Counted from the first letter of the stretch, positions 2,817 to 9,604 are shown. The stretch: 59,912 nt of DNA from a virus (IMGVR_UViG_3300034092_003926:1-59912); one strand, 5' to 3'. Notes: generated by a model from the letters alone, not told the origin. Translations and numbers: made by a program.

Positions 2817-3406
2817 TACGCATTATTGCTTTTGCTGGAACCAAACAATCAGGTAAGACTACTTGTGCTACAAATATCTTAAATCATTGGAAAAGCACAA
2901 CAGTAAATCAAAAGGTTAAAATATATAATTTTGCAGATCCTTTGAAGAGGGATATCTGTATGAATATTTTAGGTTTAACAGAACAGCAATGTTATGGCGA
3001 AGATTGTTTTAAAAATACTCTTACTGATATTGTATGGGATAATAAACAACTTACCGCCAGAGAAGTGATGCAATTCGTAGGGACTGATATATTTCGCAAG
3101 ATGAAGAACAATGTTTGGGCGGACGCTACTTTAATAAAAATAAATAATGAAAAACCATCCTTAGCTGTCATTGCGGATTGTCGTTTTCCCAATGAGGTAG
3201 AGTCTGTAAAAAAGGCTGGAGGAATAGTAGTCAGACTAACGAGGAAGCCCTTTAGCTCTGATCATGCTAGTGAAGTAGCGCTTGAGCAAATTAATTATGA
3301 CTGGAATAATTTTGATATTATACTAGATAATAAAAATATGGATTTACAAACCCAAAATAATGCATTAATATCTGTATTAAAGCAGAAAGGAATACTACCA
3401 TTATAA
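2813..3406 (+). CDS. Deoxynucleoside monophosphate kinase
   Basis: Phosphorylates dNMPs to dNDPs for phage DNA synthesis. The P-loop is FAGTKQSGKTT at residues 7-17; downstream is YNFADPLKRDI, typical of phage dNMP kinases, and IADCRFPNEVE with VRLTR in the nucleotide-binding core. The length of 197 aa is slightly below the T4 gp1 class. The start ATG overlaps the primase stop. It belongs to the replication operon. The next gene probably initiates just before this stop codon. The T4 gp1-like family is the best match; substrate choice (dGMP, dTMP, hm-dCMP) cannot be read from the sequence. Confidence 0.8.
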   Translation: MIRIIAFAGTKQSGKTTCATNILNHWKSTTVNQKVKIYNFADPLKRDICMNILGLTEQQCYGEDCFKNTLTDIVWDNKQLTAREVMQFVGTDIFRKMKNNVWADATLIKINNEKPSLAVIADCRFPNEVESVKKAGGIVVRLTRKPFSSDHASEVALEQINYDWNNFDIILDNKNMDLQTQNNALISVLKQKGILPL

Positions 3407-4443
3407 TCACATATCTTAGAAGTAGTTCATATGGAACCCATTCTTTTTGTCCTATGCAGTATTTTATTGAATATAATTTAGGCATTAGAAGTCCATCAAA
3501 TAAAAAGGCCGATAAAGGTAGTATAGTTCATAAAGTGCTAGAAATTTTAGCCTATATTAAACTTACCGAACAAAATAAAGAAAAAATCTATATAGACGAT
3601 ATTGTTGGTGAAGTTAATATTAATGATTATAATTTGAACGATATTATAGAGAAAGTCTATAATCATTATTCATCTCGGTTTAAACACCACCAGTGGGAGG
3701 TCAAAGACTATAAAGACTGCCATCTATGGGTAAACAAAGCGCTCACGCAGCACAATGGAGAGTTCGACCCTAGGAAAAGTAACATACTACAACCAGAACA
3801 ACACTTTGATATTTTAATAGACAAACCTTGGGCAGATTATGGGTATACGACCAAAGACGGATTTTTGGAGGGCAGATTGGCCATTAAGGGTACAATTGAT
3901 CTCATCACTAAAGTTGATGATAACACAATAGAAATAGTTGATTATAAAACCGGCAGAAGATTGGATTGGGCAACAGGAGAAGAAAAAACACTAGCTAAAC
4001 TTCAGAACGATCCACAACTGAGAATTTATCATTATGCTGTTAGTCAACTGTATTCTCATATCGAGCATATTATTTTTACTATTTATTTTATAAATGATGG
4101 TGGAGCGTTCAGTATTTGTTACGATAAGTCTGATTTGCCTAAAACAGAAGACATGATTCGTCAAAAATTTGAGACCATAAAAAATACGCAGGTTCCCCAA
4201 TTAAACAAAAGCTGGAAATGTACAAAGTTATGTCATTTTGGCAAAACCACATTCGAAAACTCTCACGTGTTGCCTATAATAGAGTATAGAGATGGTCAAC
4301 TATGCAAAGTCGATCAAGCCATGACCAAGTGTGAACAAATAAAGCATGACATAGAGTTGATCGGTATCAATAAGGTCATTGACACCTACACTTTTCCAGA
4401 CTATAGTATAGGGTTTTACAAGGCTCCTGGTTCGGTGGAATAA
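3400..4443 (+). CDS. RecB/Cas4-like PD-(D/E)XK nuclease, probable ATT start
   Basis: Exonuclease-like protein of the RecB/Cas4 group. The core motif is GTIDLI near residue 164 and EIVDYKTG near 177-184, giving the D...D-x-K metal site. The helix GSIVHKVLEIL supplies the usual G..vH motif. Conserved-looking N-terminal residues SSSYGTHSFCPMQYFIEYNLG lie upstream of the first ATG (3454), which would delete part of them and the Cys. The frame is open back to 3361 without ATG, GTG or TTG; AAGGA at 3387-3391 sits 8 nt before ATT 3400, so ATT (or ATA/ATC next to it) is the likely start. Cys residues in FCPM, CTKLC and MTKC could hold an Fe-S cluster as in Cas4/AddB, but the spacing is not canonical. 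It lies in the replication operon and overlaps the kinase stop. Confidence 0.72.
   Translation: MIITYLRSSSYGTHSFCPMQYFIEYNLGIRSPSNKKADKGSIVHKVLEILAYIKLTEQNKEKIYIDDIVGEVNINDYNLNDIIEKVYNHYSSRFKHHQWEVKDYKDCHLWVNKALTQHNGEFDPRKSNILQPEQHFDILIDKPWADYGYTTKDGFLEGRLAIKGTIDLITKVDDNTIEIVDYKTGRRLDWATGEEKTLAKLQNDPQLRIYHYAVSQLYSHIEHIIFTIYFINDGGAFSICYDKSDLPKTEDMIRQKFETIKNTQVPQLNKSWKCTKLCHFGKTTFENSHVLPIIEYRDGQLCKVDQAMTKCEQIKHDIELIGINKVIDTYTFPDYSIGFYKAPGSVE
4379..4407 (+). promoter_or_regulatory. Candidate sigma70 promoter inside nuclease gene
   Basis: TTGACA at 4379-4384 and TATAGT at 4402-4407 are separated by 17 bases: a perfect -35 and a 5/6 -10 box. Transcription would start near 4414 and cover the HNH gene and the polymerase. 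It lies inside the 3' end of a coding sequence, so chance matching is possible. Confidence 0.5.
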
Positions 4444-4529: not shown

Positions 4530-5246
4530 ATGGGTAGATCTATAAAAAACGGACGCTATACAAAGTGCTATAATAAAAAGCTCACCAAAAAATTTCTAGA
4601 AAAACAATATCCTAAATATGGAGCTTATAAAATAGCAAAAGACTTGGGCATGAATGTTAAAACCATATACAATTATCTAGAATATTATAATATACCTAGA
4701 GATAGAGAAAAAAATAATCAAGTTAAAAAAGGAGATGTGTTTGGATATTTGACCTTAATAAAGCCTGTAGGTAAATTAAAAAACGGAACAATAACATGGG
4801 AATGCAAATGTGAATGTGGTAAAAAAACAATCGTTCCATCATCAAGAATTAAGGCTGGAGGAGTAAAAAGCTGTGGATGCTTCTTAAAAATGAAAGGTCA
4901 AAAAAGATGGAATTGGAAGGGGTATTGCGGGATAAGTGGCGCTAGATTTACAGAAATAAGATGGAGAGCAAACAAGAAAGGATTCGATTTTGATTTAACA
5001 CCTGAATTTTTGTGGAAGCTTTATATACAAACTCAGAATAAAAAGTGTGCCATCACAGGCGAAGAAATCGATCTTGACAAAGACGGGTCATTAGATAGAA
5101 TTGATAGTTCTAAAGGATACGTCAAAAATAATGTTTGGTGGGTAAAAAAAGATATTAATAAAATGAAACTAGACTTTCCTTTACATATATTTATTAAGTT
5201 GTGTGAAAAGGTCGTAGCCAATAAGGAGAAAATTAGATGGACATGA
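4530..5246 (+). CDS. Free-standing HNH homing-type endonuclease
   Basis: An HNH endonuclease of the phage homing type. The start is taken at ATG 4530 (MGRSIKNGRYTKC); ATG 4485 would add 15 hydrophobic residues and place the leader hairpin inside the gene. Residues 15-55 form a helix-turn-helix (YGAYKIAKDLGMNVKTIYN). A zinc-ribbon-like module follows, WECKCECGKK...GGVKSCGC, common in phage HNH/AP2 endonucleases. The C-terminal HNH part reads KCAITGEEI, then SLDRIDSSKGYVKNNV, with the Asp-Arg-Ile-Asp stretch and the Asn of the HNH core. The gene sits between nuclease and polymerase and its stop overlaps the polymerase reading frame. The likely target lies in the polymerase start region just downstream. 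Confidence 0.82.
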   Translation: MGRSIKNGRYTKCYNKKLTKKFLEKQYPKYGAYKIAKDLGMNVKTIYNYLEYYNIPRDREKNNQVKKGDVFGYLTLIKPVGKLKNGTITWECKCECGKKTIVPSSRIKAGGVKSCGCFLKMKGQKRWNWKGYCGISGARFTEIRWRANKKGFDFDLTPEFLWKLYIQTQNKKCAITGEEIDLDKDGSLDRIDSSKGYVKNNVWWVKKDINKMKLDFPLHIFIKLCEKVVANKEKIRWT

Positions 5247-7127
5247 GCAACTATATACCGCTTCATGTCCATTCTTAAGTGGGCTATGTTCTCACTTTTG
5301 GATGGACTATCAAAACCAGAACAAATCGCTGAAAGATGCAAAGAAATTGGTGCAACTGCTTGTGCTTTAACAGACCATGGTAATATAGCGGGTGCGGTTA
5401 AGTTTTATCTGGCAATGAAAGCTGCCGGAATAAAACCGATTTTAGGCTGTGAACTATATATCTGCAAAAATAATCCTTCTATTAGAGAAAAAGAAAATAA
5501 AGAACTAAGTCATCTTTTAGTTTTAGCAAAAAATTATGATGGATGGAAAACTCTTATTAAAATAGTTTCAGAATCCAACAGAGAAGATTATTATTATCAT
5601 AAGCCTCGTCTAGATATCAATGCTCTTGCTTCGTTGAATGATGGTAATTTGATTATGATTACTGGACATCTTGGTTCGACATTAGCAGATGAATTAATTG
5701 AGAATAATCAATTAAAAACAAACTGGAAAGAACTTGGTATTAGCCATATCAATACTTTGAAAGAAAAATTTGAATACGTATTTTTAGAAGCTCAATTGAT
5801 GGACTCTAATAACTTAACTATACAAGTTCAACTTACGGATGCCATCAGAACCTTGGGTAAATTAACAAATACAAAAGTTGTTTGTACTCCAGATGCTCAT
5901 TATGCTCGAAAAGAAGATGCTGCCGATCAAAGAATATTGCTATGTAATAATTTAAAAGTGACATTTACAGACATTAGTCGAAAAATTAGCAACGACGAAG
6001 ATGTTCCTATGGGCTGTTTCTTTACGTCTGATAACTATCATATTCTATCTCAAGAAGAAATGAAAGAGTTACATACTGTAGAAGAAATAGAAAATACAAA
6101 TTATGTGAATAGCCTAATTGAAGAATACGACATTCTTAGTAAACCAAAACTTCCTCCTTTTAGTTGTCCTCCTGGATATGATGATGCAGAATATTTGAGA
6201 GAACTTTGTCGAAAAGGATGGAAAGAAAAAATAGCAAACATAATTCCTAAAGAAGAACATAGTATTTATGTTGATCGTATTAAATACGAATTAGATGTTT
6301 TGCAAGGAGCTAATCTTAGCAGCTACTTTTTAATTGTTCAAGATATTGTTAATGAAGTAAGAAAAAATGGGTGGTTACCCGGACCCGGAAGAGGTAGTGC
6401 TGCGGGATGTTTAGTTTCTTATTTAATTGGTATTACTAGTATAGATCCTATCAAATATAATCTATTTTTTGATAGATTTTATAATTCTGGTAGAAATACT
6501 AAAGACCGTATATCTATGCCAGATATTGATGTGGATGTTCCTATTAATAAAAGAGAATATATAATTAATTATATTAAACAAAAATATGGAGAAAATAAAG
6601 TTTCTCAAATGATTACATTTAATACTATTAAGGGTCGAGGCGCTCTTAAGGACGTATTGAGGGTATATGGCAATGTTAGTTTTGAAGAAATGAATAGAAT
6701 TACAAAGAATATTCCTGACGAAGCTAAAATTGCAGATGAATTGCAAGAAATGAAAGAAGAAACTGGTGAAGCATCTATTATCCGATGGGCATTAGAAAAT
6801 AATGCAGATAAACTCAAAGAGTGGTGTTATATAGATGAAAACGGAGAATTACAGGGACCACTAGCCAAAAGATTTGAACAGGCTATAAGATTAGAAGGAA
6901 CGAAATCAAATCAATCAAAACACGCCGCCGGAATCGCTATTAGTTCTGAACCATTAAAAGATATTTGTCCTATGGTATATGATAGCAAAAATGACCAATA
7001 TATTGCTGGTATGGAAATGCAAGACCTAGAAAATATTGGTATCATTAAGTTTGATATTCTTGGCGTAGCAATGTTAGATAAAATTATGACCATACAAGAT
7101 CTTTTACAGCAAGGAGTGGAATTGTGA
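5237..7127 (+). CDS. dnaE: DNA polymerase III alpha, N-terminal part (PHP + palm), +1 frameshift needed
   Basis: N-terminal half of a bacterial-type replicative polymerase. AAGGAG at 5223-5228 lies 8 nt before ATG 5237, which encodes MDMSNYIPLHVHS and then TAA (5276-5278). The sequence resumes one frame over as FSLLDGLSK, the next part of the same PHP motif, and runs to 7127. Reading +1 at TCT-TAA-G gives HS-KWAM-FSLLDG and 629 aa. The only ATG in the main frame nearby (5265) has no SD and would remove the HxH metal ligands. Other PHP motifs are present: TDHGN, GCELY, SHLLVLA, PDAHYAR. The palm has GPGRGSAAG, PDIDVD near residue 427 and IKFDILG near 605, so all three catalytic aspartates are here. 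The fingers are encoded separately at 7988-9604. Confidence 0.85.
5273..5288 (+). promoter_or_regulatory. Candidate +1 frameshift or 10-nt bypass site
   Basis: TCT (5273-5275) ends the PLHVHS frame, TAA follows, and AAG (5277-5279) begins the polymerase frame after skipping one base. The Ser codon before a stop with a +1 shift resembles the antizyme and prfB type of programmed shift. Alternatively, removing the ten bases 5276-5285 restores HS-M-FSLLDG exactly, so the segment can be seen as a 10-bp insertion. A disabling mutation is also possible. Confidence 0.6.
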
Positions 7128-7303
7128 TCAAAAAATTTAATGACGTAGAAAACAATACTGTGTTTAAAATAAATGGCATGGAATATACAAAAGTACCAAC
7201 AGTAAAAGTTAGTTGTTGCAAAAGTATAAATGCCATTCAAGTTGATAATACTAATAATAGAACATTTATTCAACCCTCAACAGATGTAGAAGTGAATGAT
7301 TAA
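7124..7303 (+). CDS. Small unknown protein, GTG start
   Basis: A 59-codon frame beginning with GTG 7124, which overlaps the stop of the polymerase N-part (TTGTGA) and ends inside the start of the exonuclease gene. The product begins VIKKFNDVENNTVFKINGMEYTK on translation (Met at initiation), with a Cys-Cys pair in VSCCKSINA and an acidic C-terminus. It looks like a small beta-rich domain. Both overlaps and the lack of spare bases argue that it is translated by coupling. I do not recognise it; a role in holding the split polymerase together would be speculation. Confidence 0.55.
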   Translation: MIKKFNDVENNTVFKINGMEYTKVPTVKVSCCKSINAIQVDNTNNRTFIQPSTDVEVND

Positions 7304-7985
7304 TTATAATAAAATATGTGTTTTTGATTTTGAAACAGATGGATCCGATCCTAAACAATGCAGCCCTGTTCAAATAGCAGCTATTATTATTGATCCTATA
7401 CAATTAGAAATTGTTGACGGTTCAGAATTTAATATTAATTTCAAACCAGAAGTATTAGAACAATCTGAAGACTATCAATACGAAACAGATATTCTTGATT
7501 TTCATTCCAAAGTAAAGGGGTGTAGTAAAGACGATATCTTAAATGAATGGAAAAAATATCCAAAACAGGAACATTCATGGAAGATGTTTACTAACTATCT
7601 GGATAAATATCATACTAGAAGTTCAAAAAAAAGTCAGTTCAGCGCACCAATTGCAGCAGGGTATAACATACATAGATTTGACTTGCATATTGTAAATCGT
7701 CTTAGTAAAAAATATGGAAACTTAAACAAAGAAGGTAATACGGATTTATTTTTTCCAAGAGATATAGCAGATGTGATGAATTTAGTTTTTTATTGGTTTG
7801 AACACAATAATGAACTAAAAAGTTACACTCTCGATACCGTAAGAGATTATTTTGGTATTGATAAAACTGGTGCTCATGATGCTCTAAAAGACGTAAAAGA
7901 TACCGCGGATATATTGATACGTTTCATGAAGTTACATCGTAATCTAAGTAGTAAAATAAAGTTTAAGGATTCATTCTTAAAATAA
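7296..7985 (+). CDS. DnaQ-like 3'-5' exonuclease (DEDDh)
   Basis: Proofreading-type exonuclease. Exo I is CVFDFETDGSD near residue 8-16, Exo II lies in GYNIHRFDLHIV near 122-133, and Exo III is GAHDALKDVKDTADI near 189-203 with the His-x4-Asp arrangement of the DEDDh class. The length is 229 aa. The gene sits between the two parts of the polymerase, so it very likely supplies proofreading to that enzyme; this is inferred from position. It overlaps the small upstream gene by 8 bases and is followed after 2 bases by the polymerase C-part. No clear SD precedes it, which fits coupled translation. Confidence 0.85.
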   Translation: MINYNKICVFDFETDGSDPKQCSPVQIAAIIIDPIQLEIVDGSEFNINFKPEVLEQSEDYQYETDILDFHSKVKGCSKDDILNEWKKYPKQEHSWKMFTNYLDKYHTRSSKKSQFSAPIAAGYNIHRFDLHIVNRLSKKYGNLNKEGNTDLFFPRDIADVMNLVFYWFEHNNELKSYTLDTVRDYFGIDKTGAHDALKDVKDTADILIRFMKLHRNLSSKIKFKDSFLK

Positions 7986-7987
7986 CT

Positions 7988-9604
7988 ATGGTTAAAAAAT
8001 TTGAGTATTCGTGCGGGTGTAGTTTTCCTATATCTCAGGATAATGGAATATCCAAAATATCATTTAATCCTAAAATTGAAAATATTAATCTTGAGTGTCA
8101 AAAAACATGGGATTTAATTTCCAGTGGTAATACAAAAGGTTGTTTTCAATTAGAGAGTCGTCTTGGTCGTAGTATGGCAAAAAAATTGAAGCCAGAAAAT
8201 ATAGAGCAGTTATCTGCTTTAATTAGTATTATGAGGCCGGGATGTTTAGAAGCTGTCAGAGATGGTAAAACAGTCAGTAACCACTATATAGATAAAAAGA
8301 ACGGATTAGAATCTGTTGATTATTTTCATAAAGCTCTTGAACCTGTACTTGGAAATACATATGGCGAAATGGTCTATCAAGAACAGGCGATGGAAATAAC
8401 AAAAGTAATTGCTGGATTTAACCTGCAAGAAGCAGATATGTTAAGAAAGGCTATCGGTAAGAAAAAACCAGAAGAAATGGCCAAGGTCAAAAATAAGTTT
8501 TTAGAGGGTGCAAAAAAGTTGTCTATTGTTAGTGATTCTGAGGCAGAACAAATTTTCGGATGGATAGAAAAAAGTCAAAGATACTCTTTTAATAAAAGTC
8601 ATTCTGTTAGTTATGCGATTAATGCTTATCTATCAGCATATACCAAATCGCACTTCCCTAAAATATTTTTTGCTTCATACTTGAGATTTGCTAAAGACAA
8701 AATAGACCCTCAAGCAGAAATCAAAGAATTAATACAAAATGCCAACGAGATGGATGTTAATATTAACACGCCTGATATTAGAAACTTAAATGAGTTTTTT
8801 GTAATTAAGAATAATAAGATATATTTTGGTCTTACGGATATTAAAGGTGTTGGAAAGTCAGTTTTTGATAAAATTATATCTTTGACCAAAGATATTGATA
8901 TGACCAGCCCCAGCTGGATAGAATTACTTCTTAAAGTTCTTAATAATATAAACTCCATAGCAGCTAAAGCGATAATACAAAGCGGTGCAACGAATTTTTG
9001 CAATAAAACCAGAAATAGTATGTTGTATGAATACAATTTAATTAGTGGTTTAACCAAAAAAGAATCAGAGTTCATACTAAATAATATTAACAAGATTAAA
9101 ACAATTAAAGAAGGATTAGAACTTCTGCTAACTGCACCAAGGATAACAAAAAATAGAAAACAAATCATTCAAGATATGATCTATTCTTTAGTGAATCCAC
9201 CATATTCTTTAGAAGATACTGCTGAATGGCTTGCTGATTCAGAAGATTCTCTTCTAGGATGCTCCATAACATGCTCAAAAATTGATATGTATGATATTAG
9301 TATGACTAATATGAATTGCAGAGAATTCAAAACTAGTCATATAAAAGAGAATATTATTATTGGTGGAGAAATTGATTTTATCAGTGTAACAAAAACAAAA
9401 AATGGTAAAAATCCTGGAGCAGAAATGGCTTTTGTTACGTTGACAGATTCTTATGGATCGATAGATTCTGTAGTATTTTTCCCTGAAAAGTACAAAGAAT
9501 ACAAAAATTTATTGTTTCCTAATAATGTTATAATTGTCAAAGGAAACAAGTCAAAGTCTGGTGATGGGCTAATCGTGGAAAAGGCTTATATAGCTAAAAC
9601 TTGA
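7988..9604 (+). CDS. dnaE: DNA polymerase III alpha, C-terminal part (fingers, HhH, OB)
   Basis: Second half of the replicative polymerase. After a 30-residue N-terminal extension with a CxC pair (SCGCSFP), the protein continues where DnaE would after the palm: TKGCFQLESRLGR, ALISIMRPG, VYQEQAMEI, ADMLRKAIGKKKPEEM and FNKSHSVSYAI, which are fingers motifs. LTDIKGVGKSVFDKI is the helix-hairpin-helix of the clamp-binding region, and the last 90 residues form an OB fold (GGEIDFISVTKTKNG...AFVTLTDSYGSIDSVVF). It has no start of its own kind of PHP or palm, so it must assemble with the product of 5237-7127. It does not break at the cyanobacterial split-intein site and has no intein sequence. The stop overlaps a promoter for ssb. 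Confidence 0.87.
   Translation: MVKKFEYSCGCSFPISQDNGISKISFNPKIENINLECQKTWDLISSGNTKGCFQLESRLGRSMAKKLKPENIEQLSALISIMRPGCLEAVRDGKTVSNHYIDKKNGLESVDYFHKALEPVLGNTYGEMVYQEQAMEITKVIAGFNLQEADMLRKAIGKKKPEEMAKVKNKFLEGAKKLSIVSDSEAEQIFGWIEKSQRYSFNKSHSVSYAINAYLSAYTKSHFPKIFFASYLRFAKDKIDPQAEIKELIQNANEMDVNINTPDIRNLNEFFVIKNNKIYFGLTDIKGVGKSVFDKIISLTKDIDMTSPSWIELLLKVLNNINSIAAKAIIQSGATNFCNKTRNSMLYEYNLISGLTKKESEFILNNINKIKTIKEGLELLLTAPRITKNRKQIIQDMIYSLVNPPYSLEDTAEWLADSEDSLLGCSITCSKIDMYDISMTNMNCREFKTSHIKENIIIGGEIDFISVTKTKNGKNPGAEMAFVTLTDSYGSIDSVVFFPEKYKEYKNLLFPNNVIIVKGNKSKSGDGLIVEKAYIAKT

Follow-up and report, generated by a model that had tools for sequence, protein, structure and literature searches.

Known systems of translational bypassing

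To our knowledge, gene 60 of phage T4 has long been the sole well-established case of translational bypassing in a phage. In this gene, a stop codon follows the take-off codon, accompanied by an A-site hairpin, a 5' stem-loop, and an HNH endonuclease gene upstream (PMC11194080, PMC5009743, PMC7282821, PMC3014915). At the take-off codon, release factor 1 is shut out by the A-site hairpin. EF-G powers the sliding of the ribosome, and closure of the 5' stem-loop behind it exerts a pull on the mRNA (PMC11194080, PMC5009743, PMC7282821).

A related arrangement is found at the start of dnaE, the gene of the DNA polymerase III alpha subunit, in a 59,912-nt stretch of viral DNA (IMGVR_UViG_3300034092_003926), referred to here as the window, and in relatives designated by locus numbers (L001 and so on). 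Very probably, this element makes the ribosome hop over a gap (programmed translational bypassing) and is spread by an HNH homing-endonuclease cassette to which it belongs. As in T4 gene 60 with its neighbor mobA, a phage replication gene contains a gap and an HNH gene lies upstream (PMC5009743, PMC11194080, PMC3014915, PMC2988022). Further similarities are the stop directly 3' of the take-off codon, the small A-site hairpin, a covarying 5' stem-loop, a putative landing codon that at many sites resembles the take-off codon, and the lack of the gap in cassette-free relatives. In contrast to the 50-nt gap of gene 60, the dnaE gap comprises only 3 to 9 nt, and Ser codons are used instead of Gly codons, in a different gene and within the PHP domain of DnaE. 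The take-off codon is already codon 13 or 14, and the dnaE element has no counterpart of the stimulator (KKYK) located ∼25 to 30 residues before take-off; such a nascent-peptide signal cannot be present because the leader has only 13 to 14 codons. The 3' arm of the dnaE hairpin is coding, with the landing codon at the loop. While the gene 60 element has been described as unique to T4, the dnaE element is spread over dozens of lineages, with all three phases represented. By analogy, it may work in part like gene 60, and it is not classified as a gene 60 homologue.

Three other systems are close to the dnaE element in single respects. Stop hops have been obtained in synthetic Escherichia coli constructs (Weiss et al. 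1987, as cited in PMC5009743). The 2016 review that cites them states that natural in-frame stop hopping was not known and that shorter counterparts of the bypass were expected (PMC5009743). At the sequence level, L272 looks like a natural stop hop, with matched codons around a stop (TCT TAA TCT, nine nucleotides for one amino acid), and the other members resemble longer versions of it. Unlike the synthetic constructs, the dnaE element is natural, conserved, and structured. The byp elements from mitochondria of Magnusiomyces capitatus share with it the occurrence of many short, skipped, frame-breaking inserts, take-off and landing codons that are sometimes unmatched, and a proposed mobility (PMC5009743). 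Contrary to byp, the dnaE element resides in phages with bacterial-type translation, is confined to one gene, has a stop at the take-off site, and features a linked endonuclease and covarying hairpins. In the tape-measure gene of mycobacteriophage Corndog, an HNH gene is likewise located just upstream and the normal start is absent; bypassing was proposed by those authors, with ACG initiation also considered (PMC4351075). Here, in contrast to dnaE, gap, take-off, and landing are undefined, and the case is limited to one small cluster.

Frame break at the start of dnaE

All parts of the element in the window are located on the plus strand. The HNH endonuclease gene (4530 to 5246, 238 amino acids), part of the putative mobile cassette, ends with a TGA codon that overlaps the leader of the polymerase. 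This leader, ORF1 (5237 to 5275), is preceded by AAGGAG, opens with ATG (5237 to 5239), and encodes in 13 codons the peptide MDMSNYIPLHVHS with the first PHP motif (HxH). It ends at TAA (5276 to 5278), directly behind the take-off codon TCT for Ser (5273 to 5275); the open frame of the polymerase (MFSLLDGLSKPEQIAERCKEIGATACALTDHGN...) is shifted by one frame relative to it. The coding gap TAAGTGG (5276 to 5282) starts with the stop codon and is followed by the putative landing codon GCT (5283 to 5285). ORF2 (5286 to 7127) resumes in another frame as (M)FSLLDGLSKPEQ..., beginning MFSLLDG, and contains the remainder of the PHP domain and the N-terminal half of the polymerase, with Pfam matches to PHP (E value of 4e-31) and DNA_pol3_alpha (E value of 2e-74).

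In insert-free relatives, both halves of the PHP motif lie in one frame, e.g., MNYIPLHCHSMFSLLDGL, with the spacing HVHS-M-FSLLDG. The window exceeds these relatives by exactly 10 nt between the two halves, TAAGTGGGCT (5276 to 5285). The original prediction, made from this one sequence, that HxH and FSLLDG are encoded in different frames separated by the stop TAA at 5276 is confirmed by translation and by 53 distinct insert-bearing sites. The gene is embedded in a replication module of helicase, primase, dNMP kinase, PD-(D/E)XK nuclease, HNH, DNA polymerase III alpha, and exonuclease genes. The best tblastn matches among cultured relatives are ∼35% identical, and the DNA match to these is limited to a 78-nt stretch of phage G. 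A phage-encoded tRNA or a reassigned stop codon was rejected as an explanation of the break: no tRNA gene was found in the window, and TAA, TGA, and TAG each terminate other ORFs.

Conservation of the insert and of the polymerase

A search by DnaE similarity without any insert criterion returned 80 relatives, 14 of which carry an insert at the same point, each with TAA or TAG right after a TCY Ser codon. Additional pattern scans required a stop after the HxHS codons together with codons of the SLLDG type; start codon, hairpins, landing codon, and length were left free, and inserts well beyond 12 nt could be caught. In total, 53 different dnaE starts with an insert were obtained from 103 fetched, partly overlapping loci; they form 39 clusters at 90% DnaE identity, with DnaE identities as low as 41%, and all members are uncultured phages. 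The insert measures 6 nt at 1 site, 7 nt at 1, 8 nt at 3, 9 nt at 12, 10 nt at 16, 11 nt at 18, and 12 nt at 2, so that phases 0, 1, and 2 (mod 3) are represented by 15, 17, and 21 sites. The stop codon after the take-off codon is TAA at 30 sites, TAG at 21, and TGA at 2. A skip that starts at the stop and includes the codon preceding H/M leads to the insert-free length, HVHS-[H/M]-[F/Y]SLLDG, in all length classes. By sequence comparison, the frame break is thus conserved and the predicted product length is constant in every frame class.

These length classes speak against programmed frameshifting, in which a +1 shift at TCT-TAA-G, as in prfB and antizyme, would operate in the window and other shifts in other lineages. 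A +1 shift would indeed connect the frames of the window as HS-KWAM-FSLLDG, but the 6- to 12-nt inserts of the relatives demand shifts of 0, +1, and +2, which rules out a fixed +1 frameshift. The products would contain variable extra residues inside the metal-site loop, genes of the 6-, 9-, and 12-nt classes require no shift and nevertheless encounter the stop, and the gap is under constraint as one arm of a hairpin (see below). Frameshifting that differs between lineages is therefore highly improbable, and a hop is favored because only a hop yields the same product across inserts of 6 to 12 nt. Of the two routes offered by the original prediction, the skipping of 10 nt stands, and the +1 reading has to be abandoned.

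As judged from its sequence, the polymerase gene is functional; the break is not an artifact of assembly, and the gene is not dead. The conserved Asp, His, and Glu positions of the PHP region are invariant, and both the leader and the resumed frame are conserved with synonymous variation. The residues D19, D43, H44, E69, H89, H141, E181, D186, D216, H218, D224, and D227 are found in 48 of 48 insert-bearing and 51 of 51 insert-free proteins, which extends to these proteins the earlier statement that the other PHP ligands of the window are intact. Among 44 distinct leaders, Tyr is kept in 44, Pro in 43, Leu in 44 (encoded by five synonymous codons), and H-[V/C]-H in 44. The leader has 13 to 14 codons in every member, and past the gap, Ser and Leu are conserved while being encoded by several different codons. 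HNH-free relatives combining the insert with a dead PHP domain, the case named beforehand as contradicting the prediction, are absent: many members lack HNH, and all keep the conserved PHP residues. Faulty sequencing, faulty assembly, or gene decay, for which nothing speaks except the frame break itself, is refuted by the 53 distinct versions from many separately assembled contigs, the compensatory changes, and the intact PHP residues; its probability is next to negligible.

Take-off and landing codons

Each of the 53 sites uses TCT, TCC, or TCG for take-off. The proposed landing codon is TCN at 34 of 53 sites and has a middle C at 52; GCT, GCC, ACT, or TTT occurs at 19 sites, including the window (GCT). 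L150 contains both the sole TCG take-off codon and the sole TCG landing codon. In the window, GCT differs from the take-off codon TCT at position 1, and this base is held in the take-off hairpin. According to the title of a 2004 study by Herr et al., listed among the references of PMC3014915, bypassing reportedly tolerates minimal re-pairing. The mismatch in the window, the lack of TCN at 19 of 53 sites, and the missing nascent-peptide stimulator, which is important in T4 gene 60, are counted as points against bypassing.

Termination followed by reinitiation just downstream would produce a polymerase without the first PHP motif and turn the leader into a regulatory upstream ORF. This is the main rival reading for the window itself because an in-frame ATG (5286) follows right behind the insert. 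Many relatives contain GTG at −6 or TTG at +12 in the resumed frame, and reinitiation, being independent of frame, is compatible with every insert length. However, no start codon is conserved, and L066 and L107 lack any ATG, GTG, or TTG from the insert to codon 44, past TDHG. The codons before the sole available start (H/M, F/Y, S, and L) keep their amino acids under synonymous changes, the conserved PHP residues, HxH included, do not vary, and the likeness between landing and take-off codons is left unexplained. Since L066 and L107 have no start before codon 44, none is conserved elsewhere, and HxH is maintained by selection, reinitiation is unlikely as a general explanation.

Two covarying hairpins

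Two hairpins adjoin the take-off codon in the insert-bearing genes, and sequence comparison reveals compensatory changes in both. They were absent from the original prediction and are added by the present analysis. The 5' stem-loop (5237 to 5272) lies directly 5' of the take-off codon and pairs ATGGACATGA (5237 to 5246) with TCATGTCCAT (5263 to 5272), a perfect 10-bp inverted repeat in the window with a folding energy of −14.9 kcal/mol and a z score of −5.3. The stem measures 9 to 10 bp. Over 44 distinct leaders, 97.5% of cells are paired (9 of 9 pairs in 36 leaders, 8 of 9 in 6, and 7 of 9 in 2), and 4 pairs show double changes, with 21 double-change cells. This covariation is matched in none of 500 shuffles, and sliding of the partner reduces pairing to ≤46%. 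Variants of the pairs include ATGGACATG/CATGTCCAT, ATGGACGTG/CACGTCCAT, ATGGCAA/TTGCCAT, and ATGGCAG/CTGCCAT. In GTGGGCGTG/CACGTCCAC, the start codon itself is altered together with its partner; the GTG start codon of L272 covaries with CAC, and the HCH versions of the leader in L247 and L254 re-pair as well. At the same positions, insert-free genes mostly show 4 to 6 of 9 pairs, with a maximum of 7.

The take-off hairpin (5277 to 5297) is formed by AAGTGGG (5277 to 5283) and CTCACTT (5291 to 5297) with a loop of 7 nt; the partner strand consists of the downstream Tyr/Phe-Ser-Leu codons (Phe-Ser-Leu in the window). Its helix begins within the stop codon, at nucleotide 1 or 2, and the putative landing codon is situated where the 5' arm meets the loop. 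Over 40 distinct sequences, the mean minimum free energy is −5.6 kcal/mol, compared to a mean of −3.7 when insert-bearing genes exchange their partner strands (none of 300 swaps as low, the lowest being −4.4) and a mean of −2.0 with insert-free downstream sequence. Pairs altered on both sides at synonymous positions include TAGCGA/TCGCTA, TAGAGA/TCTCTA, TAACGA/TCGTTA, and GAGTG/CACTC. The third base of the Leu codon is paired as A-U 27 times, U-A 9 times, and G-C and C-G once each, and that of the Ser codon as U-A 27 times, A-U 3 times, and C-G 3 times, in addition to wobble pairs. The hairpin is almost missing in L272 and L150. Gap length correlates with helix length (rho of 0.84). Since the gap covaries and tracks helix length, it represents one arm of the hairpin, the arm that the hop would skip.

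A longer form of the take-off hairpin (5267 to 5307) is possible, with an outer helix between GTCCATTC (5267 to 5274) and GGATGGAC (5300 to 5307) that excludes the 5' stem-loop. It reaches −19.0 kcal/mol in the window, and insert-bearing genes show −18.6, compared to −9.9 for chimeras with insert-free downstream sequence. The evidence for this form is weaker because the outer helix hardly covaries. In an RNAalifold analysis of the full element, the outer helix alone appears; because gaps of different lengths disrupt the inner helix once the sequences are aligned, the inner helix was tested sequence by sequence.

Two adjoining covarying hairpins flanking a short insert would also suit removal of the insert from the mRNA, as a tiny intron or by hairpin-guided excision. 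However, half of the take-off hairpin is coding and has to remain in the message, and no Rfam family matches in the sequences scanned (the window, L214, L247, L248, and L254), which also led to the rejection of a group I intron or other known RNA in these sequences. Bacterial splicing of 6 to 12 nt is not known to us and is counted against this reading, which is very unlikely.

Proposed mechanism

With programmed bypassing as the preferred reading, translation would initiate at ATG 5237 and yield MDMSNYIPLHVHS, after which the ribosome would stall, its P site occupied by the Ser codon TCT and its A site by the stop codon. The hairpin starting inside the stop codon would exclude the release factor from the A site, and the peptidyl-tRNA-Ser would detach from the mRNA. 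The stem between the start-codon region and the HVH codons would then close behind the ribosome and draw the mRNA backwards. When TCT occupies the P site, the ten bases upstream contain this stem's entire 3' arm, so that the stem could presumably close only as the ribosome advances; its 9 to 10 pairs are about the same size as the 6 to 12 nt to be moved. The tRNA would re-pair at the serine-like codon atop the take-off hairpin, 7 nt further on (3 to 9 nt in the relatives), and translation would resume, with the two PHP halves joined as ...PLHVHSMFSLLDG... in a polymerase of normal length. The assignment of GCT as the landing codon follows from the insert-free product length that this position gives in every length class; the hop by the ribosome and this exact codon are deduced from sequence, and the roles of the hairpins are suggested by analogy to gene 60. 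The proposal in the original prediction of a short frame-breaking insert, tied to the upstream HNH gene and overcome by recoding as in T4 gene 60/mobA, is supported in this form.

HNH cassette and its distribution

The HNH gene of the window matches endonuclease and HNH families of PHROGs, with E values from 1e-22 to 1e-13 (best, 1.2e-22), and shows no Pfam match at 1e-3 and no match to solved structures. An intact or relic HNH gene is located directly upstream at 12 of 53 insert-bearing sites, including the window. Full-coverage homologues upstream of dnaE are found in L055, L083, L111, L128, L133, L216, and L233, with 55 to 87% identity to that of the window, and C-terminal relics are found in L001, L004, L088, and L288. 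No HNH relative was detected adjoining the gene at the other 41 of 53 sites; the gap and the hairpins are still there. In most insert-free relatives, a PD-(D/E)XK gene ends at the start codon of the polymerase.

Among 67 insert-free loci, an HNH relic occurs in one allele only, represented by two loci. This 68-residue relic (L013, 34 to 240; L014, 4480 to 4686) directly precedes a polymerase gene that has neither the insert nor the paired leader. It may derive either from a cassette that lost gap and stem or from an HNH lineage without the gap. The relic, together with the lack of a recognizable HNH gene at most sites, is also counted against bypassing as part of a cassette.

Insert-bearing and insert-free genes are interleaved in the DnaE tree, a patchy distribution that requires at least 13 changes, 9 of them forced by the starred branches; gain and loss are indistinguishable by count. 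In the simplest reading, the element would have spread by homing, and the endonuclease would later have been lost with the gap being kept. The gap would stay after this loss because only a precise deletion removes it. A role of the insert as a putative shield against cutting by the endonuclease is plausible. It appears rather probable that these sites represent a new, widespread class of mobile hopping elements, in which the gap is an inverted copy of the downstream codons and the leader is an inverted copy of the HVH codons. The cassette would install a cleavage-resistant break in an essential active-site motif and, at the same time, the RNA structures by which this break is overcome; the hop would outlive the endonuclease, down to a minimal stop hop.

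L288 is the only insert-bearing copy in the genome collection, and its contig is binned to a Chitinophagia metagenome-assembled genome (MAG), which is a weak hint of Bacteroidota hosts.

Further features of the polymerase region

The frame of the PD-(D/E)XK nuclease in the window (3400 to 4443) begins with IIITYLRSSS and overlaps there with the stop codon of the kinase gene in front of it. The start of this gene is ATG (MIITYLRSSS) in relatives and another codon in the window, L001, L038, L043, L045, and L055; the gene of the window may start at ATT/ATA or not before ATG 3454. A second HNH gene family is located ∼1.1 to 2.1 kb upstream of dnaE in L066, L080, L083, and L088, just upstream of the PD-(D/E)XK gene, the start of which looks normal in L066, with the gap absent. 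L247 contains a putative TnpB-like gene, judged by eye (5888 to 7507), upstream of its insert-bearing polymerase gene, at the position of PD-(D/E)XK or HNH in others.

DNA polymerase III alpha of the window is encoded by two ORFs (5286 to 9604), separated by a 59-amino-acid ORF (7124 to 7303) and a DnaQ-like exonuclease gene (7296 to 7985). The order of N-terminal half, exonuclease, and C-terminal half is found in 16 of 16 relatives checked that hold this region. The C-terminal half in L001 contains an in-frame intein-like insert (7990 to 8766) with an HNH-type stretch (RPG|CIAGDTKILVGY...IVHN|CLEA) that the window lacks. Intein-like inserts are also present after DWK in the PD-(D/E)XK nucleases of L248 (1340 to 3328) and L214 (11589 to 13604); these begin with Gly (GLPIETKLPTPNGWTTIGE and GLPLDTPLPTAKGWSTMED), where Cys or Ser is usual.

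Significance

T4 gene 60 is the known example of programmed bypassing linked to a homing endonuclease; the proposed dnaE variant is new, is far more widespread, and combines a minimal gap with several phases. A description of a bypass at the start of dnaE was not found in the open-licence literature. For genome annotation, automatic assignment of the polymerase start (5265 or 5286) silently loses an active-site motif. The dnaE site is compact enough for reporter work in E. coli, and the dozens of natural sites, with a predicted skip of 3 to 9 nt in all phases and without a long nascent peptide, carry covarying signals that mark the important parts. The distribution and structure of these elements support the idea that homing endonucleases exploit translational bypassing to colonize the most conserved sites of essential genes.
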